Shown here in pieces: positions 8,460 to 60,940 of a stretch of DNA of 64,000 bases; the first letter of the stretch is position 1; each line of letters begins with the position of its first letter. The notes beneath the pieces were generated by a model. That model searched no databases and had not been told where the DNA came from. It was given only the letters and a program-made list of their open reading frames with translations. Source of the DNA: Actinomadura macrotermitis (GTDB lineage Bacteria > Actinomycetota > Actinomycetes > Streptosporangiales > Streptosporangiaceae); assembly GCF_009604375.1 (NCBI RefSeq), contig NZ_WEGH01000003.1, forward strand, positions 310,001-374,000, read 5' to 3'. The position numbers and the translations under genes are program-made.

Positions 8460-10961
8460 GTGCGGTACCGGATCCTCGGCGAGCTGGTGGTGGAGGGCAC
8501 GGCCGGTCCGGTGCGGATCGCCTCCGCGCGGCAGCGGATCGTGCTGTCGGTGCTCCTGCTGGAGGCCGGCCGGGTGGTCCCGGTGGAGCGCCTCGCCGCG
8601 GCGGTGTGGGACGACGACCCGCCGCCGAGCGCCCGCAGCCAGATCCAGATCTGCATCTCCGCCCTGCGCCGCACGCTGGCCGGCGCCGGCATCGGCGACG
8701 CCATCCGCACCCGCCCGCCCGGCTACCTGATCGAGGTCCCGGGCGAGGAGCTGGACCTGCGCGTCTTCGACCGGCTCGCGGCGGAGGGCCGGGGCGCCGA
8801 GGCCGAGGGCCGGGTGGCCGACGCCGCGGACTGCTACCGGCGGGCCCTGGAGCTGTGGCGCGGCGAGCCGTTCGGCGGCCTGGACCGTGCCGCCCTGAAC
8901 AACGCCGCGGTCGCGCTCACCGAGCGCCGGCTCGGGCTGGTCGAGCAGAGCATGGACGTGCGGCTGCGGCTCGGCGAGCACCACGAGCTCATCGGCGAGC
9001 TGACCGCGCTGGCCGCCGCGCACCCGCTGCGCGAGCGGCTGCGCGCCCAGCTGATGACCGCGCTCAGCCGCGACGGCCGGTCCGCCGAGGCCCTGGCGGT
9101 GTACCGGGAGGGCCGCGAGCAGCTGGTGGAGGAGCTCGGGCTGGAGCCCGCCCCGGCGCTGCGCCGGCTGGAGCAGTCCATCCTCTCCGGCGACCCCGGC
9201 TTCCAGCCGGCCGAGCTGGTCCCCGCCGACATCACCGCCGACGTCAGCACCGACATCAGCACCGGCGTCACCGCCGACCGCACCGGCGAGGCGGGCGCGC
9301 CCGGGGAGATCTCGCCCGCCGCGGCGCCGCCGCCCGGCGACGCCGGCGACGCCCTGCCCGAGGCGGTGCTCCCAGTCCCGCGCCCGGCGGCCGAGGTGGC
9401 GGCGCCGTTCGTGGTGCCCCGGCCGGTCGTGCCCGCCGTGCCGCGCTTCCTGCCCGCCGACATCGCCGACTTCACCGGCCGCGAGGAGCTGGCCGCCGAG
9501 CTCGGCCGCCGGCTGGAGCCCGACCCGGCCGCGCCGGTCCCGGTGGTCGCGATCAGCGGGCAGGGCGGCGTCGGGAAGACGACCCTCGCCGTCCACGTGG
9601 CGCACCAGGTCGCCGCCCGGTTCCCCGGCGGGCAGCTCTACACCACGCTGAGCGGCGCGTCCCAGCGGCCGCTCGCGCCGGTGGCCGCGCTGGAGCGCCT
9701 GCTGCGCGCCCTCGGCGTGACCGACCCCGAGATCCCGCCCACCCTGGAGGAGCGGGCCGAGCTGTACCGGGCGCGGCTCGCCGGGCGGCGGGTGCTGGTG
9801 GTGCTCGACGACGCCGCCGACGAGGAGCAGATCCTGCCGCTGCTGCCCGGCTCCGGCGGCAGCGCGCTGCTGGTGACGGCGCGGCGGCGGCTGACGTCCC
9901 TGCCCGGCGCGTACCGGGTCGACCTCGGCGTCTTCGACGTGGCCTCCGGGCTGGCGCTGGTGCGCGGGATCATCGGCGCGGCCCGGGCCGACGCCGAGCC
10001 CGACGCCGCCCGCGCCCTGGTCCGGCACTGCGGCGGGCTGCCGCTCGCGCTGCGGATCGCGGCGGCGCGCGCCGCCGCCAAACCGCACTGGCCGCTGTCG
10101 CGCCTGGTGTCGCGGCTCGCCGACGGGGAGCGCCGCCGCCTGGACGAGCTCGCCCACGGCGGCCTCGGCATCCGCTCCAACATCGAGGTGACCTACGCCG
10201 GGCTCGGCCCGGGCGCCCGGCGGCTGTTCCGCCGGCTGGCGCTGGTGCCGGGCGGCGACTTCGACGCCTGGGTCGGCGAGCCGCTGCTGGAGCACGGCGC
10301 GGTCCGCGCCGAGGACGTGCTGGAGGAGCTGGTCGACGTCCGGCTGGTGGAGGTGGCCCGCGGCGCCGTCGGCGTGCCGCGCTACCGGCTGCACGAGCTC
10401 GTCCGCGCCTACGCCGCGGAGCGGCTGGCCGAGGAGGAGCCCGAGCCGGACCGCGCCGCCGCCCGGCGCCGGCTGCTCGGCGCCCTGCTGCACCTGGCCG
10501 AGGAGGCCCGCCGCCGCGGCCCCGGCGGCCTGGTCCCGCTGGCGGGGCCGTCGCCGCGGCACCCGCTGCCCGCGCCGCTGGTGGACGCCCTGCTCGCCGA
10601 CCCGCTCGCCTGGTACGAGCGGGAACGGCCCACGCTGATCGAGGCCGTCGCCCTGGCGGCCCGCGCGGAACCGGACGGCCTGGGCTGGGAGCTGGCGACC
10701 GGCCTGGCCGCCCTGTTCGAGGTGGGCAAGCACCACGCGGACTGGCACGCCACGCACGAGGGCGCCCTCGCGGCCGTCCGCGCGGCGGGCGAGCGGCGCG
10801 GCGAGGCCGCGCTGCTGCACTCGCTCGGCGCGCTCGCCCTGCTGGAGGGCCGCGGCGCGGACGCGGCGGCGCGGTGGGAGCGGGCGGCCGAGATCCTGGC
10901 CGATCTCGGCGACGCCCCTGGCCACGCCCTGCTCCGCACCCTCCTGAAGGACCTTCCCTGA
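8460..10961 (+). CDS. SARP-family pathway regulator with NB-ARC domain (AfsR-like)
   Basis: 833 residues from a GTG preceded by GGGGGA, giving the usual SARP start MRYRILGEL. Order: OmpR-like winged helix (1-90), bacterial transcriptional activator domain (to about 245), an Ala/Pro/Gly-rich linker (about 250-325), then an NB-ARC ATPase with P-loop GQGGVGKT (367-374), and a C-terminal helical part. It lacks the long TPR tail of full AfsR-type proteins. Cluster-situated SARPs activate biosynthetic operons by binding direct heptamers, and such repeats lie on both flanks of this gene. A very long reading frame on the opposite strand is a high-G+C shadow. Confidence 0.9.
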   Translation: MRYRILGELVVEGTAGPVRIASARQRIVLSVLLLEAGRVVPVERLAAAVWDDDPPPSARSQIQICISALRRTLAGAGIGDAIRTRPPGYLIEVPGEELDLRVFDRLAAEGRGAEAEGRVADAADCYRRALELWRGEPFGGLDRAALNNAAVALTERRLGLVEQSMDVRLRLGEHHELIGELTALAAAHPLRERLRAQLMTALSRDGRSAEALAVYREGREQLVEELGLEPAPALRRLEQSILSGDPGFQPAELVPADITADVSTDISTGVTADRTGEAGAPGEISPAAAPPPGDAGDALPEAVLPVPRPAAEVAAPFVVPRPVVPAVPRFLPADIADFTGREELAAELGRRLEPDPAAPVPVVAISGQGGVGKTTLAVHVAHQVAARFPGGQLYTTLSGASQRPLAPVAALERLLRALGVTDPEIPPTLEERAELYRARLAGRRVLVVLDDAADEEQILPLLPGSGGSALLVTARRRLTSLPGAYRVDLGVFDVASGLALVRGIIGAARADAEPDAARALVRHCGGLPLALRIAAARAAAKPHWPLSRLVSRLADGERRRLDELAHGGLGIRSNIEVTYAGLGPGARRLFRRLALVPGGDFDAWVGEPLLEHGAVRAEDVLEELVDVRLVEVARGAVGVPRYRLHELVRAYAAERLAEEEPEPDRAAARRRLLGALLHLAEEARRRGPGGLVPLAGPSPRHPLPAPLVDALLADPLAWYERERPTLIEAVALAARAEPDGLGWELATGLAALFEVGKHHADWHATHEGALAAVRAAGERRGEAALLHSLGALALLEGRGADAAARWERAAEILADLGDAPGHALLRTLLKDLP

Positions 10962-10987
10962 CCTGACGGTCCCCCTCCCTCCCCGCC

Positions 10988-11039
10988 GCCGATAGCCGGC
11001 GGGCAGGGCGGTCGATGGCGCGCGCTAACCGGCCCGATA
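10988..11039 (+). promoter_or_regulatory. Candidate SARP boxes for the rightward operon
   Basis: GTCGATG (11011), a degenerate copy at 11022 and CCCGATA (11033) lie in 11-bp register; GCCGATA at 10988 is one base out of register. They share the core CGATR with the boxes in front of the leftward operon. They end about 68 bp before the first gene of the phenazine operon. A clear -10 hexamer is not visible. Confidence 0.4.
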
Positions 11040-11106
11040 GCGGCCGGGGCGAGCATGGTCACCGAACCGCCCCGAGAGCGCCGAGACGTGAGCGAGGGAT
11101 ACCGCG

Positions 11107-12318
11107 ATGACACAGACCATGGAGCGCCCCGGGGGCCGCGACGAGGCTCCCGGACACGACGACCTGGTGGCCCGCGCCGCCGCGCTGCGCGAGCGGCTCT
11201 GGCAGGACGCCCCCGAGTGCGACCGCCGCCGCCGGCTCACCGACGGCGACCTGGACGCGCTCACCGCGGCGGGCCTGTTCCGCCTGATGACCCCGCGCCG
11301 CTACGGCGGGCACGCGGCCGACATGCGCACGCTGCTGGACACCGCCGTCGAGGTCGGCCGGGGCTGCTGCTCGGCCTCCTGGGTGCTCGGCGTCTGCAAC
11401 GCCGGCAACTTCGTGGTCTCGCTGTTCCCCCGCGCCGCGCAGGACGAGGTCTGGGCCGCCGGCCCCGACAACCGCACCGCGCTGGTGCTCGGCCGCCCCG
11501 CGCCGCCGGCCGAACCCGCCGGCGAGGAGTTCCTCGTCAGCGGCGAATGGCCCTACGCCTCGGGCTCGCTGCACGCCGGCTGGGTCTGCGTGCTCGTCCT
11601 CGCCGACACCGGCACCGGCATGGCGCCGCACTTCGCGCTCATGCCCGCCGGCCAGGTCGAGATCAAGGACACCTGGCACTTCACCGGCATGCGCGGCACC
11701 GGCAGCAACACCATCACCGCCGAGCGCGTCGCGGTGCCCCGGCACCGCCTGATGCCCTACCAGCCGCTGCTGTACGGCGAGACCGACGGCCTGGTCGACC
11801 CCGCGCACCCCTACCGCAACAGCCTCACCGGCCTGTTCATGATCGGCCTGATCGGGTCGGTCGTCGGGGGCACGCAGGCGGCGCTGGAGTTCGTCCGCGA
11901 GCAGGCCGCGCGGCGGCCGGTGGCCGGTTCGAAGTTCGCCAGCCAGGCCGAGTCGCCGATGTTCCGGATCGACCTGGCCGAGGCCGCCACCGCCCTGGAA
12001 GCGGCGCGGGCCGAGGCGCACCGCCTCGCCGCGACCGTCGACGAGCTGGCCGGCACCGGTGCCAACGCCGGCTGGGAGACCCGAGCCCGCGGCCGGATGG
12101 GCTCGACCTGGGTCACCCGGCAGTGCCGCGACGCCGTCGAGGCGCTGGTGACCGCGCACGGCACGAGCTCGTTCAGCGAGGCCAACCCGCTGCAGCGCAT
12201 CTGGCGCGACGTCCACGTGGCGAGCCGGCACGCCGGCTTCGGCATGGGCGTCCCCGAACTGGTCTACGGCCACGCCCTGGTCGGCGGCGACCCCCGCGAG
12301 ATCAGCCCCCTGGTGTGA
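11107..12318 (+). CDS. Flavin-dependent hydroxylase, acyl-CoA-dehydrogenase fold
   Basis: 403 residues of the group D two-component monooxygenase type (HsaA/HpaB-like oxygenase component). The motif HFTGMRGTGSNTI (residues about 194-206) is typical, and the catalytic Glu of acyl-CoA dehydrogenases is not evident. First gene of the phenazine operon; GAGGGA lies upstream of the ATG. Expected to hydroxylate an aromatic (phenazine or aminobenzoate) with reduced flavin. No partner flavin reductase is encoded nearby, so one must come from elsewhere in the genome. Confidence 0.75.
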   Translation: MTQTMERPGGRDEAPGHDDLVARAAALRERLWQDAPECDRRRRLTDGDLDALTAAGLFRLMTPRRYGGHAADMRTLLDTAVEVGRGCCSASWVLGVCNAGNFVVSLFPRAAQDEVWAAGPDNRTALVLGRPAPPAEPAGEEFLVSGEWPYASGSLHAGWVCVLVLADTGTGMAPHFALMPAGQVEIKDTWHFTGMRGTGSNTITAERVAVPRHRLMPYQPLLYGETDGLVDPAHPYRNSLTGLFMIGLIGSVVGGTQAALEFVREQAARRPVAGSKFASQAESPMFRIDLAEAATALEAARAEAHRLAATVDELAGTGANAGWETRARGRMGSTWVTRQCRDAVEALVTAHGTSSFSEANPLQRIWRDVHVASRHAGFGMGVPELVYGHALVGGDPREISPLV

Positions 12319-32785: not shown

Positions 32786-32791
32786 TATTCT
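32786..32791 (+). promoter_or_regulatory. -10 element giving a leaderless mRNA
   Basis: TATTCT ends 7 bases before a GTG that opens the HNH gene, and no ribosome-binding site precedes that GTG. This spacing is typical of leaderless actinomycete transcripts. A good -35 at the standard distance is not obvious. Confidence 0.5.
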
Positions 32792-32798
32792 CTGTCGC

Positions 32799-33890
32799 GT
32801 GGCGCAGACCAGGCGCAAAAGAATTCCCCCGGCAACTCAGAGTGCACTGTTCGACGCGACCGGCAGACGGTGCACCATGTGCGTCAGGCCCCTGGACATC
32901 GAGGGCGGCACCCAGCACATCGGCGAGATGGGCCACATCGCCCCCCATTCCCCGCGGGGCCCGCGCCAGGAAGCGGCCAGGCCGGCCGACGTGGACGGTT
33001 TCGACAACCTCATGCTCCTGTGCCCGAGCTGCCACCGGACCATCGACAAGGAGCCGGGCCTCTGGCCGGAGCAGCAGCTGCGCGCCATCAAGGCCGAACA
33101 CGAGGGATGGGTGGTCGTCGAGCGGGCCCGGCCCGAGCGGGAGGAGCCCCCCGGTGCGGAGCTTGCGGGCATCGGCGAAGCCGTCGAGATCGGCGGCACC
33201 GCCTTCCAGATCGTGGGCGCCCCGGAGGAGGACCGGACCGCCGACGCCACGGCGATCGTGTCCCGGGCGTTCGCGCTCGCGCCGGAGGGCGGGGGCGTCT
33301 GGGTCCGCAGGATCGCCTCCCGGCGGCCCGGCCCGGAGGCACTGGAGCGGCGGGCCCGCCTGGCCGCCGAGGCCGGCCTGCTCGCCGAAGCGCTCCCCGG
33401 GCTTCCGCGGCTCGTCGCCGCGTCCATGACACCGGAGACCGCCGTGCTGGTCACCGCGGTCCCCTCGTTCACGACCATGGCCGGCTTCTACGACGGCCGG
33501 GGCCGGGAGGCCGAGGCCGTACGCGTGCTGGGGGCCGGCGTGGCCGGGGTCTGCGCGGGGCTGGCCGCGCTGCACGCCCGGGGCCTCGCCCACGGGGCCC
33601 TGGACCGCGATTCGATCATGGCCGACCGGGCGGGGGCGCTCTTCCTGCGCGACACCGGCCGCGCGTCCTGGGACCGCGCCGACCGCGCCGACCCCGCCGA
33701 GGACGTCCGCCGGCTGGCCGAGCTGCTGCACCTGACCGTGACGGGGCGGCCGCCGGTCCCGCTCGTCTCGGCCGCCGTCCTGAACCCCGCCGTGCCGGAG
33801 GCCTTCGCCCGGGCGCTCGGGCGCGCGCTGTCCCCCGGCCCGGCCGAGCGCGGAGGCGTCGCGGAACTCGGCGCCGCCCTGCGCCCTTGA
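32799..33890 (+). CDS. HNH endonuclease fused to a Ser/Thr pseudokinase-like domain
   Basis: 363 residues. Residues 20-82 form a zinc-finger HNH nuclease: Cys25/Cys28 (CTMC), catalytic His46 (GHIAPHS), Asn70 (FDNLMLL) and Cys75/Cys78-His79 (CPSCHR). After a linker, residues about 125-360 look like a protein kinase fold with a hinge, LAALHARGLAHGALDRDSIM as catalytic loop and DTG (285-287) in place of DFG. The HRD triad reads His265-Gly-Ala, so the catalytic Asp is lost: a pseudokinase. First gene of a coupled three-gene operon with a Upf1-type helicase. Combination suggests a nucleic-acid-degrading immune effector whose activity is gated by the pseudokinase part. A start at an upstream ATG (32754) is possible but less likely. 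Confidence 0.78.
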   Translation: MAQTRRKRIPPATQSALFDATGRRCTMCVRPLDIEGGTQHIGEMGHIAPHSPRGPRQEAARPADVDGFDNLMLLCPSCHRTIDKEPGLWPEQQLRAIKAEHEGWVVVERARPEREEPPGAELAGIGEAVEIGGTAFQIVGAPEEDRTADATAIVSRAFALAPEGGGVWVRRIASRRPGPEALERRARLAAEAGLLAEALPGLPRLVAASMTPETAVLVTAVPSFTTMAGFYDGRGREAEAVRVLGAGVAGVCAGLAALHARGLAHGALDRDSIMADRAGALFLRDTGRASWDRADRADPAEDVRRLAELLHLTVTGRPPVPLVSAAVLNPAVPEAFARALGRALSPGPAERGGVAELGAALRP

Positions 33891-33906
33891 CGCGGAGGAG
33901 CCGACC

Positions 33907-36834
33907 GTGACGGAAAAGATCGTCGACCTCGGTCCCGAGGCCGGCCTGGTCTGGTCCAAGAAGTTCCCCGGCACGCTGGTCGAGCAGCGCGAACGCCATC
34001 CCCTCCTGCCGGGCCTGGAGGGGATCGGCCGGGACCTGTGGTCGCTGGGCCCGCAGGACCTGGTGCCCGCCCGGCTGGAGCGGGGCAGGCAGGGACGCGG
34101 CGACTTCCTCAAGATCTACCTCGCCGGCCGGTACGCCCTCCTGCTCTTCCCCACCCGGGACCAGCGCGGCTACTGGGTCGGCGGCGTCCACCCGATGCGC
34201 TTCGACGACCACGACCAGATCGTCCGGGGCGGCCTGTCGCTGCGCGCCGGACGCTGGCGGGTCTTCGACCACCCCCGCGAGCTGCGCCACCTGTCCGGCT
34301 GGCCGCAGGTCCAGGCCGCCTGGTCCGCCGCGGGCGCCGGGCCGCCCGGCGGCGGGCCGCCGCTCCCGGACTCCCACACCGCCTACCTCGACCGGCTGGC
34401 GACCCTGGTGGACGAGGGGCGGCGCATCGAGGCGTCGGCCGGCGACGCCCGCCGCCTCGTCCGGTACCGCCGGGTCACCCCGGTGGCCGCGACCCGGCGG
34501 TCCGCCCGGTCGGTGCACTCCTTCCAGCTCATCGACGCCGCCCGGCCGGCGACCGGCACCCGCGTCCACATCGACGGCGCGCCCGACCTGCGCGGCCGGA
34601 TCGAGCGGATCGACGAGGGCGTGGCGACGATCCGGTTCGAACGGCCGGTGGACTTCGGCCGGATACCCGAGATCGGCGCGTTCGCCGAGTCGCCCAACCT
34701 GGTCGCCTACGACAAGAAGAGCGAGGCCATCGACATCCTGCGCCGGCAGCGCTCGCCCAATCCGCTGTTGCTGACGGCGCTGGCCGACCGCGCGTTCCAG
34801 CCGTTCGCCCCCGCCACCGGGGTGCGTCCCCGCGAGCCCCTGGACGACAGTCAGCTGAGCGCGTTCCGCAAGGCGCTGGCCGTTCCCGACCTGGCGCTGA
34901 TCCAGGGGCCGCCGGGCACCGGCAAGACCCACACCATCCGGCAGGTCGTCCTGGCGTGCGCCGAGCAGGGCCGCAAGGTGCTGATCTCCTCGTACACCAA
35001 CCGGGCCGTCGACAACGTGCTCAAGGACCTTCCGACGAACATGCTGGTCCTGCGCGTGGGGAGGGAGGACGGCATCACCCCCGGCTGCGAGCACCTGACG
35101 CTCGAAGCACGGGCGGCCGAGCTGCAGCGCCTGATCGCCGACCGCACCGAACCCGTCCTCGACCGCTACCGCGCCGCCGCCCGGGACGGCGCGGCCGACG
35201 CCCTGTTCCGGCAGCTGGCCGAGGATCTGCGCCGGCTCGATGAGGCCGTGGCGACCGCCCGGCGCAGCGCCGCCGCGGCGGCCGACCGCGAGGCCGCCGT
35301 GACCGCGCCCCTGGTGCAGCGGATGAGGTCCCTGGACGAGGCGCGGCGGCACCACGAGGAACTGCTCGCCGAGCGCACCTGGTCCCTTCAGCGGCTGGAA
35401 CGCGCGCTGGACAGGGCCCGGCGCACCGCCGGGTTCCCGCTGATCGGCGCGCTCTTCCGCCGCCGGGCCACGCGCCTCGAAGCCGAGCGGTCGGCGGTGG
35501 GCGCCGAGGCCGGGGGCGTCCGCCACACGCTCGACGCGATCGCCGGAGACCAGGCGCAGGCGGCCGCCGAGCTCGGCCGGGTCCGCACCGCCCACCCCGC
35601 CCTGATCGCCGCCCGCCGGGCCCATGAACGCGACGTGGCCGAGCAGCGGTCCCGCGCCGAGCGGGCCGCACTCGTCGCCGCGCCCCTGCGGGAACTGATC
35701 GAGGGCGAACTGCCCGAGATCACCGCCGACCCCGCCGGGCTGGCCGCCTTCCAGGCCGCCGCGGGCGCCGCGCTCGCCCTGATGCGCCGGAGGCTGGAGC
35801 TGCTGACCTCCTGGCGCGGCAACCTCGAACGGCGCACCGAGCAGCTCTACGGCGAGCTCCTCAGGTACGCCGACGTGGTCGGGGCGACGTGCATCGGCAG
35901 CGCGACGAGCGGGCATCTCGACGACCTCGGCTTCGACCTGGCGATCGTCGACGAGGCGGGCCAGATCAGCACCGCGGACGTGCTCGTCCCGCTGGTCCGG
36001 GCGCGCCGGGCCGTCCTCGTCGGCGACCACGTCCAGCTCCCGCCGCTGCCCGACGACCGGCTCGTCGCCTGGACGCGGACCGAGCATCCCGGCGACCCCG
36101 GGATGACGCGGCTGGTCACCGACAGCGCCTTCGAGCTGCTGTTCCCCTCGGTGCCCCAGGAGAACAAGGAGGTGCTGCGCTACCAGCGCCGGATGCCCGA
36201 GCCCCTGGCCCGCTTCATCTCCGGCCACTTCTACGGGGGGTTCCTCGAAAGCGACGTGAAACGGGTCCACCGTGACGACCTGTTCGCCGCTCCCATCGCG
36301 TTCGTCGACACCGCGGAACTCCCCCAGCGGCAACGGCGCGACCGCAAACCCCGCCAGGACGAGCCCTGGCCCAAGGACAGCCGCCTCAACGAGTGCGAGG
36401 CCGAGCTGCTGGCCCTCCTGGCGGCCCACTACCACGCGCGGTCCGACGACTGGGCGGTGATCCTGCCGTACGCGGCCCAGATCGGGCTGGTCACCTCCCT
36501 GCTCGCCCGGCGCATCGGCGACGAGGAGGCGGTGGCCCGCCGGGTGGCGACCGTCGACTCCTTCCAGGGCGGCCAGCACGACACCATCCTGTTCGGGTTC
36601 ACCCTCAGCAACCCCGACGGGAGGGTCGGTTTCCTGCGGGAGGTGCGCCGCTCGAACGTCGCCTTCTCGCGGGCCAGGCAGCGGCTGGTCCTCGTCGGGG
36701 ACCTCTCCACGCTCCTCAACGCCGCCGATCCCGGCTTCCGCCACCTTGCGCAGGCACTGCACGACCATGTGCGGGCCTCGGGGGACCTGCGGGGATACCG
36801 CGAGGTCATGCGACACCTCAAGGAGGGCGCATGA
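33907..36834 (+). CDS. Upf1/DNA2-type SF1 helicase with internal coiled coil
   Basis: 975 residues. N-terminal 300 residues have no recognised fold except a beta-rich OB-like part (HIDGAPDLRGRIERIDEG, about 221-238). Helicase motifs follow: Q-motif region and Walker A GPPGTGKT (334-341), SSYTNRAVDNVL (Ia), a long Ala/Arg/Glu-rich coiled coil (about 390-620), Walker B DLAIVDEAGQ (about 677-686), VGDHVQLPPL (III), RYQRRMP (IV), VDSFQGGQHDTILF (V) and NVAFSRARQRLVLVGD (VI). This is the COG1112-like family of 5'-3' RNA/DNA helicases. GTG start with GGAGGAG. It overlaps the next gene by ATGA. In defence islands this family partners with nucleases and kinases. Confidence 0.88.
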   Translation: MTEKIVDLGPEAGLVWSKKFPGTLVEQRERHPLLPGLEGIGRDLWSLGPQDLVPARLERGRQGRGDFLKIYLAGRYALLLFPTRDQRGYWVGGVHPMRFDDHDQIVRGGLSLRAGRWRVFDHPRELRHLSGWPQVQAAWSAAGAGPPGGGPPLPDSHTAYLDRLATLVDEGRRIEASAGDARRLVRYRRVTPVAATRRSARSVHSFQLIDAARPATGTRVHIDGAPDLRGRIERIDEGVATIRFERPVDFGRIPEIGAFAESPNLVAYDKKSEAIDILRRQRSPNPLLLTALADRAFQPFAPATGVRPREPLDDSQLSAFRKALAVPDLALIQGPPGTGKTHTIRQVVLACAEQGRKVLISSYTNRAVDNVLKDLPTNMLVLRVGREDGITPGCEHLTLEARAAELQRLIADRTEPVLDRYRAAARDGAADALFRQLAEDLRRLDEAVATARRSAAAAADREAAVTAPLVQRMRSLDEARRHHEELLAERTWSLQRLERALDRARRTAGFPLIGALFRRRATRLEAERSAVGAEAGGVRHTLDAIAGDQAQAAAELGRVRTAHPALIAARRAHERDVAEQRSRAERAALVAAPLRELIEGELPEITADPAGLAAFQAAAGAALALMRRRLELLTSWRGNLERRTEQLYGELLRYADVVGATCIGSATSGHLDDLGFDLAIVDEAGQISTADVLVPLVRARRAVLVGDHVQLPPLPDDRLVAWTRTEHPGDPGMTRLVTDSAFELLFPSVPQENKEVLRYQRRMPEPLARFISGHFYGGFLESDVKRVHRDDLFAAPIAFVDTAELPQRQRRDRKPRQDEPWPKDSRLNECEAELLALLAAHYHARSDDWAVILPYAAQIGLVTSLLARRIGDEEAVARRVATVDSFQGGQHDTILFGFTLSNPDGRVGFLREVRRSNVAFSRARQRLVLVGDLSTLLNAADPGFRHLAQALHDHVRASGDLRGYREVMRHLKEGA

Positions 36835-38000
36835 GCGGGACCTCCACCGCCCTGTACACGCAGGCCCGCGCCCTGGAACACGCCGCCGGGCTTCCCGGGG
36901 TCAGGCCGCTGCGCGTGCACGCCCTCGCCTTTCCCCTGCACGCGGTCGAACTGTCCGCCACGATCGAGGAAAGCGGGCCGTTCGACCTGCTCGACCGGTA
37001 TGTCGGCCTGACCATCGCCGAGGCCGGCTTCACCCGCCGTCAGGACATCGCCGAGTTCCTGGGCATCTCCGAGCACATGGTCGACCGGGTGCTGCGCTTC
37101 CTGGGCGGCATCGGCCACCTGACGGGCTCCGCCGACGCCCTCTCCCTGACCGAACGCGGCTTTCGGTCGGTCCGCGACGACCGCCGCTACACCGTGAAGC
37201 AGGACAGGCTGCGCCTGTACTTCGACGGAGTGCGGTGCGGGCCCCTGCGCACCGGGCACTACGCCCGCGGCGTCCGGATCCTCGACCGCGACGCCGCCCT
37301 CGCCCAGCGGACCTTCCGCCTCATGCCGGAGGAGCGCGGCTTCCGCCCGGACGCCGTCGCGGAACTCGCCCGGCGCCCCGACCGCGGCGAATACGACCTG
37401 CCGGACGAACTGCTGGACCTGAAGGTCCTGGAGGTGGGCCGGGCCTTCCTTCCCTGCTACGCCGTCAGGGCGTACGACGGCGGCCGGCTCACGACACTCG
37501 TCTACTCCGGCGTCGCCGAGCTACGGGACCACCACCTGGAGGAGATCTGCAACGCCTGGCCGGCGGTCACGCACGTGCTGGAGGGCACCGACACCGAGCA
37601 CCCGCGCGAGCACTTCGGGGAGTGGATGCGCGAACGGGGCATCGACCCCCGCTCGCTCGTCTGGCTCGACCACTACAGCGCCCGGCTCGTCCTCCCGCCT
37701 TCCGCGTACAGCGGCCGTGAACGCGGGAAGGGCTCCTTCTCGCCGACGATGCTCGGCTCGTACGTGGCTCCGCGCGGCCACGTCCTCCAGCTGTGGTGCT
37801 CGGACGCCGCCACCCGGACCAGGACCGTCCTGGAACGCGCCCTGGTCTACGCCACGGCGACCGGCCGCACCGTGCCGGAGGTCACCGCCTTCCTCGGCCG
37901 CGTCTGCCGCCAGCTCGAACCGGACCGCGACGTCACCCTCGACGACCTGCGCAGACACGCCCGCAACGCGGGCTACGGCACCCTCGACCTCGCGGAATGA
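36831..38000 (+). CDS. Winged-helix protein of the HNH/helicase operon
   Basis: 389 residues, no family I can name. Residues about 62-115 form a winged helix (FTRRQDIAEFLGISEHMVDRVL, then a wing and LTERG). The rest is mixed alpha/beta with no nuclease or kinase motif that I can see. It is coupled to the helicase by a 4-bp overlap and ends the operon. Possible roles: DNA/RNA-binding subunit, specificity factor or autoregulator of the putative defence system. Confidence 0.7.
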   Translation: MSGTSTALYTQARALEHAAGLPGVRPLRVHALAFPLHAVELSATIEESGPFDLLDRYVGLTIAEAGFTRRQDIAEFLGISEHMVDRVLRFLGGIGHLTGSADALSLTERGFRSVRDDRRYTVKQDRLRLYFDGVRCGPLRTGHYARGVRILDRDAALAQRTFRLMPEERGFRPDAVAELARRPDRGEYDLPDELLDLKVLEVGRAFLPCYAVRAYDGGRLTTLVYSGVAELRDHHLEEICNAWPAVTHVLEGTDTEHPREHFGEWMRERGIDPRSLVWLDHYSARLVLPPSAYSGRERGKGSFSPTMLGSYVAPRGHVLQLWCSDAATRTRTVLERALVYATATGRTVPEVTAFLGRVCRQLEPDRDVTLDDLRRHARNAGYGTLDLAE

Positions 38001-45746: not shown

Positions 45747-47837
45747 CTATTGAGGATTTTCCTGATCTCGCAGCACGATGGCGAGGTTGTTACGACTGTC
45801 CAAGGTGTCGGGATGTTCGGCCCCCAGCACCCGGCTCCTGATCTCCAAGACGGCGCGCTGCTCGGCCTCGGCCTCGGCCGACCGCCCCAGATCACGCAGC
45901 ACGTTGGCGAGGTTGTTACGACTGGTCAAGGTGCTGGGATGTTCGGCCCCCAGCACCCGGTTCCTGATCTCCAAGACGGCGCGCTGCTCGGCCTCGGCCT
46001 CGGCCGACCGCCCCAGATCACGCAGCACGATGGCGAGATTGCTACGACCGGTCAAGATGTCGGGATGTTCGGCCCCCAGCACCCGGCTCCTGATCTCCAA
46101 GACGGCGCGCTGCTCGGCCTCGGCCTCCTCCCACCGCCCCAGATCACGCAGCACGACGGCGAGATTGCTACGACTGGTCAAGGTGCTGGGATGTTCGGCC
46201 CCCAGCACCCGGCTCCTGATCTCCAAGACGGCGCGCTGCTCGGCCTCGGCCTCCTCCCACCGCCCCAGATCACTCAGCATGACGGCGAGATTGCTACGAC
46301 CGGTCAAGACGTCGGGATGTTCGGCCCCCAGCGCCCGATTCCTGATCTCCAAGACGGCGCGCTGCTCGGCCTCGGCCTCCTCCCACCGCCCCAGATCACT
46401 CAGCGCGACGGCGAGATTGCTACGACTGGCCAAAGCCCTGGGGTGTTCGGGGCTGTATTGCTGTTGGTAGTCGTTGAGAGCTTGGTGTGCTGCGGTTTCT
46501 GCGAGCTGGTAGCGGCCTTGGTCGTGCAGTGCGTTGGCGATGTTGTTCGCGTCGGCGGGGGTGGCGTGGGCGAGGGCGGCAGCGATGGTGGCCTGGGGGA
46601 TGTGGTCGTTGGGGTTGGCGGTGCGTTGCACGGTGTCCAGCAGGTAGTCGAACACCTCGCAGGTGTCGTTGCCGTTCAACTGCAGAGGTGCGTTTCCGGA
46701 ATCGCGGGTCTGGGTGGCCCACTGCCAGGCCTGTTCCTCGGTCTCGGGGTTCAGGCGTGCCCCTCCTCGTTGCTCCAAGTAGACAGTGGAAGCCTGGCTG
46801 ATGAGTTGGCGGGGTTGCGGGGAGGTGTAGCCGGCGCGGCGAATGTCGATGGCGGCAGCGACCAAGGCAGCGCCCCGAGGGTGTGTTCCGCGTGCCCATG
46901 CCCGCTGCCATTCCTGCATCAACTGCGGCCCGCACGCCAGGTACTCGGCAATCCCGTATGTGTTGGCATGTGCTAAGGCATCGTTGATGCGGGCGTCGTC
47001 GGTGGCCACTTCAGCAGCGCGCTGCTGCTCGGCCTGGCTGAAGTGGCACTCCACCCAGATCCGGGGCCGTGCCTGCTCCAGTACCGCTGCGCTCTCCCGC
47101 CGCGACGAACGCCCTTCGTCGTCCTGGGCAGCAGCGGTGAGGCGGTCCTCCTCGGCCGCGCGCAGCGTCGCCACGATCACCCGGTGATGCCCATCGCCGG
47201 CCAGCAACTCGGCGACGTGCTTACCGGTGATTCCGTCCGGACCGAGGTAGCCCTCCAGGTCGTTGAGCCACAGCACGCATCGCCGCGATGCGGCCGCTTC
47301 GGTCACAGCAGCCCCGACCGCATCCCGGGTGTGCGGCACGATCAACCGGTGATCGGGCAGCACCGCCCGTACCGCCTCGAACGCTGCCCGCGTCTTGCCC
47401 GCCGTCGAATCGCCCACCAGCAGCACAAACCCGCTCCATCCCAACGCCGCCCGCAGCTCGACATCGAAATCACGCGGCACGTATGCCGGTACCCGGTCAC
47501 TGGCTCCAACCGGGGTTTCGGCAACCAGCCGGCGAGCTGGGTGCACTCCGACCACACCGATCGGATCGGTCACCTCACGCACCCGAGGCACCTTCCCACC
47601 TGGCGTGAACGTGCCCCTGGCCAGCTCCTTAGCCTGATCCTCGCGGGCCTTCACCGCCCCCTCGAACCGGGTCTTCCACACCCCCGCCACCAAGGGCGCC
47701 AATGCCGCGACCACACCAGCGGCCACCAGCCACCAACGCCCCTTGATACCCGCTTCCTTCAGCAGCGCAGGAATCACCACCAGCAGCGCGGCCGCACCCG
47801 CCAATGCCCCCGCCCAGATGACACTTCTGCGCCTCAC
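45747..47837 (-). CDS. Membrane-anchored P-loop NTPase with C-terminal TPR repeats
   Basis: 696 residues. Two N-terminal transmembrane helices (about 7-27 and 35-55), then a P-loop domain with GDSTAGKT (142-149) and Walker B-like WLNDLE (190-195), a helical middle part, and six 42-residue tetratricopeptide units of the kinesin-light-chain type (five full, last one cut short). The layout of effector or anchor, NTPase and repeat sensor is that of STAND-like proteins, some of which are anti-phage sensors. It is the first cargo gene at the left end of the element. GTG start with GAGG upstream. Confidence 0.7.
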   Translation of the reverse strand: MRRRSVIWAGALAGAAALLVVIPALLKEAGIKGRWWLVAAGVVAALAPLVAGVWKTRFEGAVKAREDQAKELARGTFTPGGKVPRVREVTDPIGVVGVHPARRLVAETPVGASDRVPAYVPRDFDVELRAALGWSGFVLLVGDSTAGKTRAAFEAVRAVLPDHRLIVPHTRDAVGAAVTEAAASRRCVLWLNDLEGYLGPDGITGKHVAELLAGDGHHRVIVATLRAAEEDRLTAAAQDDEGRSSRRESAAVLEQARPRIWVECHFSQAEQQRAAEVATDDARINDALAHANTYGIAEYLACGPQLMQEWQRAWARGTHPRGAALVAAAIDIRRAGYTSPQPRQLISQASTVYLEQRGGARLNPETEEQAWQWATQTRDSGNAPLQLNGNDTCEVFDYLLDTVQRTANPNDHIPQATIAAALAHATPADANNIANALHDQGRYQLAETAAHQALNDYQQQYSPEHPRALASRSNLAVALSDLGRWEEAEAEQRAVLEIRNRALGAEHPDVLTGRSNLAVMLSDLGRWEEAEAEQRAVLEIRSRVLGAEHPSTLTSRSNLAVVLRDLGRWEEAEAEQRAVLEIRSRVLGAEHPDILTGRSNLAIVLRDLGRSAEAEAEQRAVLEIRNRVLGAEHPSTLTSRNNLANVLRDLGRSAEAEAEQRAVLEIRSRVLGAEHPDTLDSRNNLAIVLRDQENPQ
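45771..46440 (-). repeat. 126-bp tandem repeats inside the TPR region
   Basis: Five full units beginning at 45771, 45897, 46023, 46149 and 46275, and a partial one at 46401, each 126 bp and nearly identical at the DNA level. Differences concentrate at the helix-A positions (SNLAV/SNLAI, HPDVL/HPSTL). Such uniform repeats point to recent amplification and possible copy-number change by recombination. Confidence 0.85.
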
Positions 47838-55859: not shown

Positions 55860-57377
55860 ATGGCATGGGAGTTCCGCAAGACCGGCCCTGGTGAGAATGT
55901 CGCCGTCGAGGCCCAGACCGACCCGTTCGCCGCGCCCAAGTGGGCGCCTCCGGTGTGGCACATGCCGGAGTTCCTCGTCCTGGCCGTCAACGTCGTCCGC
56001 GTCCTGGTGCGCGTGGCGGTCGTCCTGATCCGCAACATCGTCCCCGTCTCGGCCGCCTCGGCGCTGGCCTGGCTGGGGCACCGGTTCGGCTGGCAGCTCC
56101 CGGCTGCCCTCGTGGTCCTGGTGCTCCTCGCCGTTGGCGCGTGGGCGGTCATAGACCGGCCTTCCTTCGTGCGCTGCATCGGCCGTCCTGTCCGGGCGCG
56201 GTGGCGGCTGGTGCGGGTCTACCGGCGCGACTGGCAACCGGTGCTCACCACCGCTGGGCTGTCGCGGACGCACAAGCGGCGTGAGTACCTGCCCTCGATC
56301 GTGCGCGTGTGCTGCGGTCCGACGTGTGATCGGGTGCTGGTGCGCATGCTCAAAGGGCAGGCACCCGACGCCTGGGAGAAGGTCGCGCCCAACCTCGCAC
56401 ACGGCTTCGGCGCACAGCTCGTCCGCGTCCGCCAGGGGACGGCGAACCGCTGGTACTGGGACGCCGGTGTCCTGCGCGTCCGCCAGGTACCCAAGCCGGG
56501 CCGGATCTGGCTGGAGTTCGTCCGCAAGGATGCGCTCGCCGTCCCGATGCCTGCTCTGCCGCTACTGGAGGCCTCCGAGGTCGATCTACGCGGCGTGGTC
56601 ATCGGCCGCCAGGAAGACGGCTCCCCGTGGCGGCTGCGGCTGCTCGGCACCCACGTTCTGATCGCCGGTGCGACGGGGGCCGGCAAGGGGTCGATCATCT
56701 GGTCCACCGTGCGCGCGCTGCTGCCGCTGATCCTGGCCGGGCTGGTGGAGGTGTGGGCGGTCGACCCCAAGCGGATGGAGCTGTCGTTCGGCCGCGCCCT
56801 GTTCGAACGCTACGGCCGGTACTGCGACGACCCGACCGGCGGCATGGTCAAGCTCCTGGAGGACGCGGCAACGGACATGAACGAGCGGGCCGCCGAGTTC
56901 GCCGGGGTCGTCCGCTCCTTCACGCCGTCGCACCGGCACCCGTTCCGGGTGGTGATCGTCGATGAGCTGGCGTTCCTGACCGCCTACTGCCCCGAACGCG
57001 ACCTCAGGAAGCGCGCTGAGGCGGCGTTGGCGGTGCTCACCAGCCAGGGCCGTTCGGTGGGGTACTGCGTGATCGGCGCGCAGCAGGACGCCCGCAAAGA
57101 GGTCAACAACCTGCGCAACCTGTTCCCCGACCGCATCGCCCTGCGGCTGGATGAGTCCGAACAGGTCGACATGGTTCTCGGTGATGGCGCCCGCGACCGG
57201 GGCGCGCTCGCTGACCAGATCTCACCGGTCCCCGCGATCGGCGCGGGGGTGGGCTTCGTCCGGCTGGAGACCTCCCCCGACCCCATCCGAGTCCGGGCCG
57301 CGTTCGTCGACGACCACGACATCCGCCACATGGTCACCCTCGCCGTCCCCGACGACTCCACCCCGGACGCCGCATGA
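55860..57377 (+). CDS. FtsK/SpoIIIE-type DNA translocase (TraSA-like transfer protein)
   Basis: 505 residues from ATG 55860. Two or three transmembrane helices in the first 150 residues, then a RecA-like motor with Walker A GATGAGKGS, EVWAVDPKRMELSFG and Walker B VVIVDELAFL, and an IGAQQDARKEVNNLRNLF segment typical of the family. In AICEs one such protein suffices for double-stranded DNA transfer between mycelia. It overlaps the replication gene by ATGA. Confidence 0.9.
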   Translation: MAWEFRKTGPGENVAVEAQTDPFAAPKWAPPVWHMPEFLVLAVNVVRVLVRVAVVLIRNIVPVSAASALAWLGHRFGWQLPAALVVLVLLAVGAWAVIDRPSFVRCIGRPVRARWRLVRVYRRDWQPVLTTAGLSRTHKRREYLPSIVRVCCGPTCDRVLVRMLKGQAPDAWEKVAPNLAHGFGAQLVRVRQGTANRWYWDAGVLRVRQVPKPGRIWLEFVRKDALAVPMPALPLLEASEVDLRGVVIGRQEDGSPWRLRLLGTHVLIAGATGAGKGSIIWSTVRALLPLILAGLVEVWAVDPKRMELSFGRALFERYGRYCDDPTGGMVKLLEDAATDMNERAAEFAGVVRSFTPSHRHPFRVVIVDELAFLTAYCPERDLRKRAEAALAVLTSQGRSVGYCVIGAQQDARKEVNNLRNLFPDRIALRLDESEQVDMVLGDGARDRGALADQISPVPAIGAGVGFVRLETSPDPIRVRAAFVDDHDIRHMVTLAVPDDSTPDAA

Positions 57378-59086
57378 CCAGCCTCACCATTGCCGGGCAG
57401 TTGTCGACGGACGGCACCGCCGACCTTCCCCCGGCCGCCCTGGTCCCTGCTGAAGTCGCACGGCTGGTCAAGACCATGCCGCCGCTCGCTCGTGGCGTCC
57501 TGGAAGCTGTCGCGGTCGAGCAGGACGTGTGCGTGCGGCCGGTCCCGATGCGCCGGACCGACCTGCACAGCGGAGAGACCACCGTCGTCTACGTCCCCTG
57601 CGGCCACACCCTCGCCTCGGTCTGCCCAACCTGCGCCGAACGCAAGCGCAAGCTCCGGGCCGTGCAGTGCCGCCAGGGCTGGCACCTGGACCAAGAACCA
57701 ATCATCGAACGCGCCGACCCCAACGCCCAACAAGCCGCGCTCATGGAGCTGCGTGCCCAAGCTCAGGCCGAACGCGATCATGCCGAGCAGCACGGAACCG
57801 CGCACGGGGAAGACCTCGAGTTCTGGGACGGCCTCCTCGCCCGCCTGGACGGCGAGATCGAACGCTCGGGCGTGCGCGGGACGCTGAAGACCGGTGAGCA
57901 GAAGGCACGGCGCACCCGCTCCACCCGGCGGCGCCAAGACGTCGCGGACCTGCCCCGCCGGCCCGTTGACGCGCGCACGGTCGGCAAGGTCTACCGAGGC
58001 AAGGACGGCAAGACCTTCCGGCCCTCGCTGTTCCTCACCCTGACCCTGGACAGCTACGGGCGGGTGCGTCCGGACGGCACCCCGGTTGATCCGGACGGCT
58101 ACGACTACGTTCGGGCGGCTCGGGATGCGCTGCACTTCTCCAAGCTGGTCGATCGGTTCGTGCAGAACCTGCGCCGGTTCGTCGGCTACGACGTCCAGTA
58201 CTTCGCCGTCGTCGAACCCCAACGTCGCCTCGCCCCACACCTGCACATGGCCATCCGCGGAACCATCTCCCGCGCCGAACTGCGCCAAGTCGTCGCCGCG
58301 ACCTATCACCAGGTGTGGTGGCCTTCGACCGAACGCGTCGTCTACTCCGGCGAACACCTGCCCATCTGGGACGCCGCCGCGAGCGAGAACGGCGGCTACG
58401 TCGATCCCGTGTCCGGTGAGGTGCTGCCGACCTGGGACGACGCCCTTGACGCCCTCGACCAGGACGACGACGCCCAACCCCTGCACGTGGTCCGCTTCGG
58501 CCGCCAGATCGACGCCCAAGGCGTCATCGCCGACTCTCCCGATTCGCGGCGCTGCATCGGCTACCTGACCAAGTACCTGGTCAAAGGCGTCGCCGAATGC
58601 CACGAAGCCGAAACCGAAACGCAGCGTCAGCACGTGGACCGGATGGCCGAGACGCTGCGCTACGAACCGTGCTCGCCCACGTGCGCGAACTGGCTGCGCT
58701 ACGGCATCCAGCCCAAGAACCCCCGCAAGGGCCTGACCCCTGGGTTCTGCAAGGGCAAAGCCCACCGCCGCCAACACCTGGGCTACGGGGGCCGGCGGGT
58801 CCTGGTCTCGCGCAAGTGGTCCGGCAAGACCCTCGCCGACCACAAAGCCGACCGCACGGCTTGGGCGCTGGCCCGGCTGGCTGAGGCCGGAATCCCCGTC
58901 AGCAACCCGGCCGACCCGAAGGCCGCGCACGTCTGGGAACGCGCCGGGCCTGGTGACCCGGATGTCAAGCCCGTCGAACACCGGCTCTTGCTGCTGATCA
59001 ACGAACGCGCGCAGCGACGCCAGCAACTCGACCAAGCCCAACAGACCCTCACCGAACTTTCGGCAACTTCGCGGGAGGCGGCATGA
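57374..59086 (+). CDS. repSA: Rolling-circle replication initiator (RepSA-like)
   Basis: 570 residues. N-terminal cysteine-rich part (CGHTLASVCPTCAERKRKL), central FLTLTLDSYGRV, metal-binding motif HLH (289-291, in PHLHMAIRG) and catalytic Tyr pair in YLTKYL (397, 401). These are the motifs of pSAM2-type replication initiators, which nick a double-strand origin and keep the excised circle replicating. Confidence 0.9.
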   Translation: MTSLTIAGQLSTDGTADLPPAALVPAEVARLVKTMPPLARGVLEAVAVEQDVCVRPVPMRRTDLHSGETTVVYVPCGHTLASVCPTCAERKRKLRAVQCRQGWHLDQEPIIERADPNAQQAALMELRAQAQAERDHAEQHGTAHGEDLEFWDGLLARLDGEIERSGVRGTLKTGEQKARRTRSTRRRQDVADLPRRPVDARTVGKVYRGKDGKTFRPSLFLTLTLDSYGRVRPDGTPVDPDGYDYVRAARDALHFSKLVDRFVQNLRRFVGYDVQYFAVVEPQRRLAPHLHMAIRGTISRAELRQVVAATYHQVWWPSTERVVYSGEHLPIWDAAASENGGYVDPVSGEVLPTWDDALDALDQDDDAQPLHVVRFGRQIDAQGVIADSPDSRRCIGYLTKYLVKGVAECHEAETETQRQHVDRMAETLRYEPCSPTCANWLRYGIQPKNPRKGLTPGFCKGKAHRRQHLGYGGRRVLVSRKWSGKTLADHKADRTAWALARLAEAGIPVSNPADPKAAHVWERAGPGDPDVKPVEHRLLLLINERAQRRQQLDQAQQTLTELSATSREAA

Positions 59087-59280
59087 GCAGCAAGCGAGAC
59101 GAACTCCTCACCGTTGACCAGGTGCTCGCCGAGCTGGGCGGGATCTCTCGGCGCACCTTCTACCGCTGGCGCGAGATCGGGCGGGCTCCCGCTGGTATCA
59201 AGCTCCCGAACGGCGAGATCCGCATCTACCGCAGCGACCTCGACCTCTGGCTCTACTCCCTCAAGGAGGCGGCGGCGTGA
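59083..59280 (+). CDS. xis: Excisionase (MerR-like HTH)
   Basis: 65 residues: LLTVDQVLAELGGISRRTFYRWREIGRAP, then a wing (PNGEIRIYRSDLDLWL). Size, HTH and position between rep and int are those of AICE Xis proteins, which bend att DNA for excision. Overlaps both neighbours by 4 bp. Confidence 0.88.
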   Translation: MSSKRDELLTVDQVLAELGGISRRTFYRWREIGRAPAGIKLPNGEIRIYRSDLDLWLYSLKEAAA

Positions 59281-60659
59281 ACACCTCCTACAAGGTCAAG
59301 CTCTGGGAAGTGCGGTCGAACAAGTCCGTTGCCAGGCCGGGCAAGCCGAGCAAGGTCATCTCTTACACCGTCCGGTGGACGGTCGGCGGCCGGGAGAAGT
59401 CGCAGACTTTCGGCAAATCGGCGCAGGCGAAGAACTTCCTCTCCGACCTGCGCCAGGCCGCCAAAGCCGGTGAAGCCTTCGACATGGACAGCGGGCTTCC
59501 CCTGTCGATGCTCAAGGCCGCGACGGCGCGGACGTGGCTGGAGTTCGCCCGTGCCTACGTCGATGCCCGCTGGCCTCACGCTGCGGCCAAGTCGCGTGAA
59601 GGACTCACGGACACGATGACGGCGGTGACGGCGACCCTCGTCAAGGATGCGCCGAACCGTCCGGCTCCCGAGGTGCTGCGGCTGCTGCTGCGCACGTACG
59701 TGTTCGTCCCGGAGAGTCGACGGCCTGACCTCGACCCGGATCTCGGTAAGGCGCTGAGCTGGCTTGAAGCCGCCTCGCTGCCCATCACCGACCTGGACGA
59801 TCCGAAGTTGGCTCGTACCGCGCTGGAGGTCCTGGCGGTCACGCTGGAGGGCAAGCCTGCGGCGCCCTCGACGTTCCGGCGCAAGCGGGCGGTCTTCAAG
59901 CATGCCCTCGGCTACGCGGTCGAGGTGGGCGACCTTCAGTCGAATCCGCTCGATCGGGTGAAGTGGCGGCCTCCCAAGCAGGGCGGGACCGTTGACCGAC
60001 GTGTGGTGGTCAATCCGAGCCAGGCGCGCGAACTCCTCGTCGCGGTGACCTACGTGGGGCGTGTGCGTGGTCCTCGCTTGCGTGCCATGTTCGCCTGTAT
60101 GTACTTCGCCGGCCTGCGTCCGGCTGAGGCGGCGGGTCTCCGCGTGCAGGACTGCGCGCTTCCCGAAGAGGGCTGGGGAGTGATCACGGTCCGCAAGACA
60201 CGTCCGCAGACCAACAAACGTTACACCGACACGGGCCGCGCTCACGATGAACGGGGACTCAAGCACCGTGAGGACGACGTTGACCGGCCCGTTCCGGCGC
60301 CGCCAGAGCTGGTCAAGATCCTGCGCGAGCACATCGACGCCTTCGGCACAGCGGATGACGGGCGGCTGTTCGTCACCAGCACGGGCGGGGACTTCTCCGG
60401 GTCGGCCTACGCACAGATCTGGAAGCGGGCGCGGCTGCTGGCGCTGACTCCCGATCAAGTCGGTTCGCCGCTTGCCGCGCGCCCTTACGACCTTCGCCAT
60501 GCGGCGGTGTCGCTGTGGCTGAACGCTGGGGTCCATGCGCCTGAGGCGGCCGAGCGGGCGGGGCATGGGGTCGATGTGATGTTGCGGGTCTACGCGAAGT
60601 GCATCGACGGGCAACGCGACGTTGCGAACCAGCGCATCGAGGACGCGTTGGCCGCGTGA
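59277..60659 (+). CDS. int: Tyrosine integrase
   Basis: 460 residues, GTG start. N-terminal arm-binding and SAM-like core-binding domains, then the catalytic domain with Arg281 (GLRPAEA), Arg407 in YDLRHAA (box II with Tyr in the first His place, as often), His430 (AGHGVDV) and nucleophile Tyr439 (RVYAK). The last gene before the tRNA target; site-specific integration there is proven by the flanking 44-bp repeats. Confidence 0.94.
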   Translation: MNTSYKVKLWEVRSNKSVARPGKPSKVISYTVRWTVGGREKSQTFGKSAQAKNFLSDLRQAAKAGEAFDMDSGLPLSMLKAATARTWLEFARAYVDARWPHAAAKSREGLTDTMTAVTATLVKDAPNRPAPEVLRLLLRTYVFVPESRRPDLDPDLGKALSWLEAASLPITDLDDPKLARTALEVLAVTLEGKPAAPSTFRRKRAVFKHALGYAVEVGDLQSNPLDRVKWRPPKQGGTVDRRVVVNPSQARELLVAVTYVGRVRGPRLRAMFACMYFAGLRPAEAAGLRVQDCALPEEGWGVITVRKTRPQTNKRYTDTGRAHDERGLKHREDDVDRPVPAPPELVKILREHIDAFGTADDGRLFVTSTGGDFSGSAYAQIWKRARLLALTPDQVGSPLAARPYDLRHAAVSLWLNAGVHAPEAAERAGHGVDVMLRVYAKCIDGQRDVANQRIEDALAA

Positions 60660-60864: not shown

Positions 60865-60908
60865 GGCGCGCCCAGAGGGATTCGAACCCCCGACCGTCGG
60901 ATTAGAAG
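60865..60908. repeat. Right attachment repeat (attR core) within tRNA-Arg
   Basis: Identical to 45465-45508. It covers the 3' acceptor strand, T-arm, variable region and the 3' part of the anticodon arm of the tRNA. Confidence 0.93.
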
Positions 60909-60940
60909 TCCGATGCTCTATCCGGCTGAGCTATGGGCGC
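60867..60940 (-). tRNA. tRNA-Arg (anticodon TCT)
   Basis: Full cloverleaf on the minus strand: 7-bp acceptor stem GCGCCCA/TGGGCGC, D-arm GCTC/GAGC, anticodon arm with loop CTTCTAA (anticodon TCT), and T-arm with TTCGAAT. CCA is not cleanly encoded. The 3' half is supplied by the integrated element and restores the gene. It is the insertion target of the AICE. Confidence 0.95.

Follow-up and report, generated by a model that had tools for sequence, protein, structure and literature searches.

The closest described relatives of the locus considered here are the Mokosh anti-phage systems, in which a nuclease of the phospholipase D type (PLD) is part of both types, and type I combines a superfamily 1 (SF1) RNA helicase of the COG1112 type with a serine/threonine kinase domain (PMC11672841). 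The locus itself, a three-gene operon, lies at positions 32786 to 38000 of the window, i.e. the whole analysed stretch of 64,000 nucleotides from Actinomadura macrotermitis (contig NZ_WEGH01000003.1, positions 310,001 to 374,000, forward strand). It shares with Mokosh type I the SF1 COG1112-type helicase, a kinase-fold domain, an MkoB-type winged-helix region and the coupling of its genes. At the same time, the PLD nuclease that Mokosh carries in MkoB is missing from gene 3 of the window operon, and the kinase, which in type I belongs to the helicase protein, is here a degenerate fold encoded by a separate gene and fused to another effector. Judged by its sequence, the operon is related to Mokosh type I but rearranged, and the lack of the PLD nuclease places it outside this type. 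Comparison with its relatives demonstrated a constant core, formed by the MkoA-type helicase, the PLD-less MkoB-type protein and a pseudokinase, that is equipped with differing N-terminal modules. With somewhat more confidence than doubt, we infer that this is an accessory, Mokosh-related candidate immune operon, in which a helicase/MkoB-like sensor would drive exchangeable effectors through a pseudokinase adaptor. The features of the operon are as follows.

32786..32791, plus strand: -10 element TATTCT of the putative leaderless promoter, 7 bases upstream of the GTG start codon
32799..33890, plus strand: gene 1, predicted HNH nuclease-pseudokinase, 363 amino acids, GTG start
32808..33116, plus strand: predicted Cap5-type HNH domain of gene 1, residues 4-106 (PADLOC SAVED-HNH, solved chain 9om4)
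33180..33887, plus strand: predicted pseudokinase domain of gene 1, residues 128-363 (AlphaFold, Foldseek, family alignment)
33907..36834, plus strand: gene 2, SF1 Upf1-type (COG1112-like) helicase, 975 amino acids, homologue of the MkoA helicase (PADLOC, Pfam)
34906..34929, plus strand: Walker A motif GPPGTGKT of the helicase, residues 334-341, kept in the family
36831..38000, plus strand: gene 3, putative homologue of the MkoB N-terminal part without a PLD domain, 389 amino acids (PADLOC, hhalign, Pfam, Foldseek)
36987..37148, plus strand: predicted winged helix within the gene 3 protein (residues 53-106; AlphaFold, Foldseek)

An earlier sequence-only reading of this DNA had described three coupled genes with their own leaderless promoter, and both parts of that description were reproduced. 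The genes run in the same direction, with a gap of 16 bases between gene 1 and the helicase gene and an ATGA overlap between the helicase gene and gene 3, and the TATTCT element begins at 32786. A TANNNT hexamer stands 6-7 bases upstream of the start codon in 10/10 members of the family that carry the HNH module. Of 467 genes with good scores in the collected loci, 22 have it too; this background is rough, with starts from a simple gene caller and some loci counted twice. A leaderless start is thus well supported as the predicted arrangement for gene 1, the ten members being related and not independent observations.

The three genes also belong together outside the window. In the order sample, gene 3 was found in 25 of 297 genomes; 18 of these occurrences are near full length and all 18 adjoin the same helicase, so the three-gene operon is an association that exceeds chance, and its homologues are not scattered singly, which would have spoken against the proposed defence operon. 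In the remaining seven genomes gene 3 is present just as fragments, one of which contains an internal stop. In the genus sample, gene 1 gave matches of any kind in 19/65 genomes: seven contain the full HNH-pseudokinase and four a pseudokinase with another N-terminus, the helicase adjoining in 11/11, and the remaining eight match by a kinase or an HNH only. A pattern scan of genome contigs, built from Actinomadura rows and biased to near kin, recovered 21 loci (11 of them the same as loci already collected), all from actinomycetes by their record titles, with hosts including Microbispora, Herbidospora, Amycolatopsis, Phytohabitans, Actinokineospora, Umezawaea, Saccharopolyspora, Streptomyces and Actinocrinis. 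The phylum sample, where at most four candidates per genome were scored, yielded one of 396 genomes, the operon's own; the restriction to one family that this had suggested was dropped, the contig scan having given members from Amycolatopsis, Phytohabitans, Streptomyces and others. A tblastn search with gene 3 at 1e-4 (numbers of this form are E-values throughout) gave no match in 50,697 phage records or 72,556 plasmid records. In Actinokineospora auranticolor (L104), a helicase and gene 3 are accompanied by no visible gene 1, and an enoyl-CoA hydratase-like gene, named by reading, lies upstream; either the effector acts in trans or the operon is in decay.

Exchange of the N-terminal module was evaluated in 25 different operons, the window operon included, whose gene 1 could be read (L021 has its remaining operon genes on a separate contig, L055, and gene starts are approximate in L022-L025, L060, L100, L101, L106 and L110). 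All 25 share the pseudokinase, and the module in front of it differs among operons. The Cap5-type HNH module is present in ten of them (PADLOC 9.4e-25 for the HNH of L019). An LmuA-like module occurs in three, two of which match PADLOC LmuA at 1e-44 and 1.5e-43, the third being 72% identical; the assignment was made from this model together with a motif read by eye, and for a PD-(D/E)XK nature a profile search of the PDB gave nothing (one match at 0.67) and Mrr_cat matched at 0.04, under the cut-off. Three further operons carry a SEFIR module (Pfam SEFIR 2.7e-9, 1.9e-11 and, under the cut-off, 7.1e-4; PADLOC bSEFIR 3.3e-19 and 2.1e-14 in the two scanned). The search for SEFIR in the window's own genome gave no match, and control genomes were equally silent, so this search is uninformative. 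These first three modules are named anti-phage effectors. Lamassu, by LmuA, and bSEFIR supply the N-terminal module in the sister operons, whereas the regulator there is the pseudokinase with the helicase and gene 3, and not LmuB, the regulator on the Lamassu side, or the rest of the bSEFIR protein.

The remaining operons contain shorter elements: a QA-type motif in 3/25, a GDQ-type motif in 4/25 (read by eye in L024 and L025), a helical N-terminus in one and no N-terminal module in one. The QA-type motif is taken by us to resemble the RHIM-like BASS3 motif. In L024, a BTAD domain (Pfam 1.2e-19) is fused ahead of gene 1 (9131-11356), and in L022 (8411-9469), L023 (11481-12833) and L025 (10117-11337) a BTAD-like and helical protein is encoded by a separate gene directly upstream of the pseudokinase gene. 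These three upstream proteins end in GDxIxGTSIKNY, resembling the NGDxxxGDQ near the N-terminus of gene 1; BTAD was detected by Pfam in L024 only, and the kinship of the L022, L023 and L025 proteins and motifs was read by eye. In PMC8086366, BASS3 is called RHIM-like, and amyloid signalling from receptor to effector is described for similar motifs at the ends of adjacent genes. By analogy, the GDxIxGTSIKNY/NGDxxxGDQ pair may be regarded as a lead to amyloid-type signalling.

In the window operon, gene 1 joins an HNH nuclease to a kinase fold, so that the kinase part sits on the nuclease subunit, as had been suggested. From residue 131 onward, the AlphaFold model has block means of 69-96, and protein kinases made up all 50 Foldseek matches listed for the C-terminal half (best 2.1e-9); by its model this half is a kinase fold, and no other fold, which would have told against the suggestion, appeared. 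When its residues are compared by eye with the PknB kinase motif, the VAIK Lys is presumably replaced by Arg170, the HRD Asp by Ala267 (the motif reads H265-G266-A267, the HGA already noticed) and the catalytic-loop Asn by Ser272, with Glu191 and the DFG Asp285 retained. Gene 1 therefore appears to lack the residue set of an active kinase, only the DFG Asp being kept of the Lys, HRD Asp, Asn and DFG Asp. Of the 25 family members, only L016 and L017 have an HRD Asp, leaving 23 without it, while none has the catalytic-loop Asn and every one retains the DFG Asp; L019 and L102 were read by eye, the automatic pattern having missed or misplaced the motif. The degeneration proposed from the window sequence thus extends over the family, but it is not special to this operon, because the HRD Asp is also missing in 5/7 MkoA proteins from the same order. 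A partial parallel is PglW of type 2 bacteriophage exclusion (BREX), in which, according to PMC12839542, a nuclease is likewise linked to kinase-fold domains that include an inactive one. Unlike gene 1, PglW combines a NERD-type restriction endonuclease with a pseudokinase and an active kinase, and it is only a weak kinase match in the gene 1 relatives (best 4.5e-7).

The HNH part of gene 1 matches the PADLOC SAVED-HNH model at 1.2e-20, with SAVED-HNH matches finishing by residue 105, the solved HNH chain 9om4 at 4e-15 (1.4e-15 with the HNH part alone) and a SAVED-HNH chain at 2.4e-11. His46, Asn70, His79 and Cys25, Cys28, Cys75 and Cys78 are all present where they had been claimed; H46, N70, H79, C25, C28 and C75 are invariant in 10/10 HNH members, and the fourth zinc ligand (Cys78) varies as C, D or H across them. 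Cap5 (HNH-SAVED) of the cyclic oligonucleotide-based anti-phage signalling system (CBASS) has an N-terminal HNH with the same motifs, followed by a SAVED ligand-binding domain where gene 1 has the pseudokinase. For Cap5 it has been proposed (PMC8568899) that the HNH is switched on by ligand-induced stacking of the SAVED domains, and by analogy the pseudokinase may play the role of SAVED. No CD-NTase cyclase, which was looked for by a Pfam scan of the ten flanking proteins of the window operon, was present among those ten. The same type of HNH has a further use as an effector in another genome of the genus (L026, 8193-11069), where a single open frame of 959 codons combines it with a TPR-repeat NTPase, these domains being named by reading.

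The kinship of the helicase to Mokosh, also part of the sequence-only reading, is clear from its matches to two PADLOC MkoA models (1.7e-95 over residues 232-952, and 4.2e-71), the next best family being MkoC at 1.5e-27; Pfam gave AAA_11 (8.7e-40) and AAA_12 (1.3e-29). Walker A and DEAG are present in 26/26 family helicases; motif V (DSFQG) is conserved by 22 of them and motif VI (NVAF[ST]R) by 21. Gene 3 matches PADLOC MkoB at 9.4e-7. By hhalign, residues 22-214 of the gene 3 protein aligned at 96.3% (2e-9) with an MkoB profile from two canonical Mokosh operons found in the same order, whereas four MkoB proteins of a second, double-PLD type gave only 26.5% (7e-4). The AlphaFold model of gene 3 (mean pLDDT 90.1, the predicted local distance difference test) found winged-helix regulators of the MntR/DtxR kind as its best Foldseek matches, at 4.5e-3, with nothing at 1e-3 or better. 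A PLD domain gave no Pfam match in gene 3 up to an E-value of 1 and was absent among the 50 Foldseek matches listed, and the HKD motifs of the PLD nuclease are present in 6/7 MkoB proteins from the same order. Because of the MkoB N-terminal alignment and the lack of PLD by Pfam and Foldseek, gene 3 is best described as the predicted counterpart of the MkoB N-terminal part minus its nuclease, and it is no added subunit. This corrects the view that a winged-helix protein had been added to the Mokosh set. The replacement of PLD by HNH did hold, with the HNH in gene 1 and no PLD in gene 3; as an account of the family it is nevertheless incomplete, the HNH version being one of several effector versions.

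Five same-order Mokosh operons (L084-L088) contain the second type of MkoB, 961-1617 amino acids long, with a double HKD in 4/5; the MkoB of L088 is without HKD, and the MkoA proteins of all five are without the HRD Asp. A further gene product of 826-855 amino acids is encoded directly after MkoB in three of the five and after one small gene in L084.

In a quick tree, all 26 family helicases stood on one side of a branch separating them from the 7 MkoA proteins, with a support of 99 in the Shimodaira-Hasegawa-like approximate likelihood ratio test (SH-aLRT); two long MkoA branches meet in this tree, and the inner order of the MkoA rows is unreliable. L021/L055, whose helicase is divided between two contigs, the incomplete L107 and the remnant L099 were left out, L094 was included with its module scored as unknown, and L104 was included without a visible gene 1. 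The HNH operons form one clade of ten rows, including L094, where gene 1 would lie beyond the contig end. Additionally, comparisons between genomes showed that the cassette is patchy and is lost and transferred as a unit. A. xylanilytica (L016) and Actinomadura sp. J1-007 (L017) share 5,342 bases at 95.6% identity, from 109 bases upstream of gene 1 to 19 past gene 3, and their 19.5-kb stretches contain only one further aligned piece, of 0.7 kb at 79% and at a different distance. In the Microbispora group, the flanks of L056 and L066 are 88-93% identical, and one of the two lacks 5.7 kb comprising gene 1, the helicase gene and all but 83 codons of gene 3; in Nonomuraea thailandensis only the helicase end and a shortened gene 3 are found. 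The ratio of non-synonymous to synonymous substitution (Ka/Ks) between the window operon and L057 was 0.19 in the HNH and 0.45 in the pseudokinase; the helicase and gene 3 gave 0.33 and 0.32, respectively. Searches for an empty site of the window copy with the downstream glycoside hydrolase family 3 (GH3) protein and the upstream hydrolase gave no syntenic site; among the seven best-matching GH3 loci, whose flanks extended over no more than 1.5 kb and in some cases ended at contig edges, none contained another gene of the 20-52 kb part of the window.

These data would fit a mechanism in which the helicase and the winged-helix gene 3 protein detect an invading nucleic acid or an intermediate of phage replication or transcription. 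ATP-driven remodelling would then be relayed through the pseudokinase, serving as an adaptor for docking and oligomerisation and not as an enzyme, and the HNH domains, brought together or freed, would cut DNA and abort the infection. In the sister operons, the same trigger would drive the LmuA-like nuclease, the SEFIR domain or a partner recruited via the RHIM-like motif. We know of no pseudokinase in HamA, the nuclease of the Hachiman system. By functional analogy, Hachiman (HamA nuclease with HamB helicase) resembles the present operon as a sensor helicase that controls a separate effector (PMC12278908). A bolder form of the proposal, held by us only tentatively, is that the operon represents a new immune architecture, in which the dead kinase would be a universal socket connecting exchangeable killers (HNH, LmuA-like nuclease, SEFIR, prion-like recruitment) to the Mokosh-type helicase sensor, with the L022, L023 and L025 branch signalling by its paired amyloid-like motifs. 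The vertebrate MLKL is an executioner pseudokinase, and such a bacterial socket would parallel it.

Several simpler explanations have to be weighed against the sensor-adaptor reading. The common operon of HNH, SF1 helicase and winged helix, and the LmuA-like nucleases in three relatives, could also be expected of a restriction-like machine, whose helicase would translocate on foreign DNA with the HNH cutting directly and gene 3 binding DNA, without signalling or suicide. In the SEFIR and short-motif versions no nuclease can be recognised in gene 1, and the architecture can therefore dispense with a cutter; these versions speak for signalling over a plain restriction machine, which we regard as unlikely. 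An ordinary Mokosh type I, different only in the splitting of its genes, would explain the homology of the helicase and of the MkoB N-terminal part, and degenerate kinases are found in 5/7 MkoA read from the order too; however, gene 3 is missing the PLD nuclease, part of the definition in PMC11672841, the family helicases separate from MkoA without exception, and gene 1 carries other effectors, which makes this explanation highly improbable. Equally little credence can be given to a housekeeping module of nucleic-acid quality control or repair. The Upf1/IGHMBP2-type helicase (TIGR00376 at 2.3e-59, under the model cut-off), the purifying selection and the few defence neighbours among the singly checked proteins are in keeping with it, but the operon is patchy (11/65 genus genomes by gene 1, and 25/297 order genomes by gene 3, seven of them fragments), it is lost and transferred as a unit, and its relatives contain effector modules of CBASS, Lamassu and bSEFIR.

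The reading of the operon as an immune system with a helicase sensor and a pseudokinase adaptor must also be set against some less favourable results. The match of the window pseudokinase to the MkoA kinase is weak (1.4e-3), and among ten relatives scanned the top kinase match was MkoA in five and PD-T4-6 in the other five, so that a kinship of the two kinase domains is only suggestive. AlphaFold gave low confidence over the HNH part of gene 1 (block means about 33-63), and because of this poor model the HNH fold rests on sequence. Seven module states need six changes on the helicase tree, the minimum possible; so the modules follow the clades, each having arisen about once, and exchange did happen but was old and infrequent, not rampant. 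Moreover, the neighbours of the window operon are glycosidases, hydrolases, regulators and metabolic enzymes. PADLOC applied to 93 flanking proteins from 24 loci matched 95 families at 1e-10, and ten proteins were also scanned singly, nine from this set and a tenth at a distance of four genes. Half of the ten gave nothing at 1e-20. The other half comprised a protein resembling type IV restriction enzymes next to L017 (Orf5, 4e-139), a type I methyltransferase next to L063 (1.2e-109) and less strongly matching proteins in L020 (two of them) and L056. Most of the neighbourhoods are ordinary, defence genes being present in some only, and no enrichment is claimed from these counts.

Elsewhere in the window, a pSAM2-like integrative element (55860-60659) lies beside a tRNA-Arg(tct) gene (60865-60940) and contains genes for FtsK/SpoIIIE (2.4e-6), RepSA (4.6e-102) and a tyrosine integrase (3.3e-8). 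Inside the RepSA frame, ARAGORN placed an antisense tRNA-Gln(ttg) (58717-58792, minus strand), which may be spurious or may be a genuine tRNA that overlaps the frame. A TPR-rich protein (45747-47276, minus strand; TPR_10 9.9e-74) is encoded near an edge where the GC content falls from about 0.74 to 0.68.

No description of the operon was found in the open-licence literature searched, and the PADLOC models used date from 2023. CBASS and Lamassu are well known to exchange their effectors; for Mokosh-type helicase systems no report of it was found, as far as the open-licence literature searched extends. If the proposed reading is true, the constant core would separate the role of the Mokosh sensor from that of its nuclease, and each effector version would be a separate readout (DNA cutting, SEFIR activity or aggregation) of the same trigger. 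Pseudokinases would thereby gain a testable immune role in bacteria.

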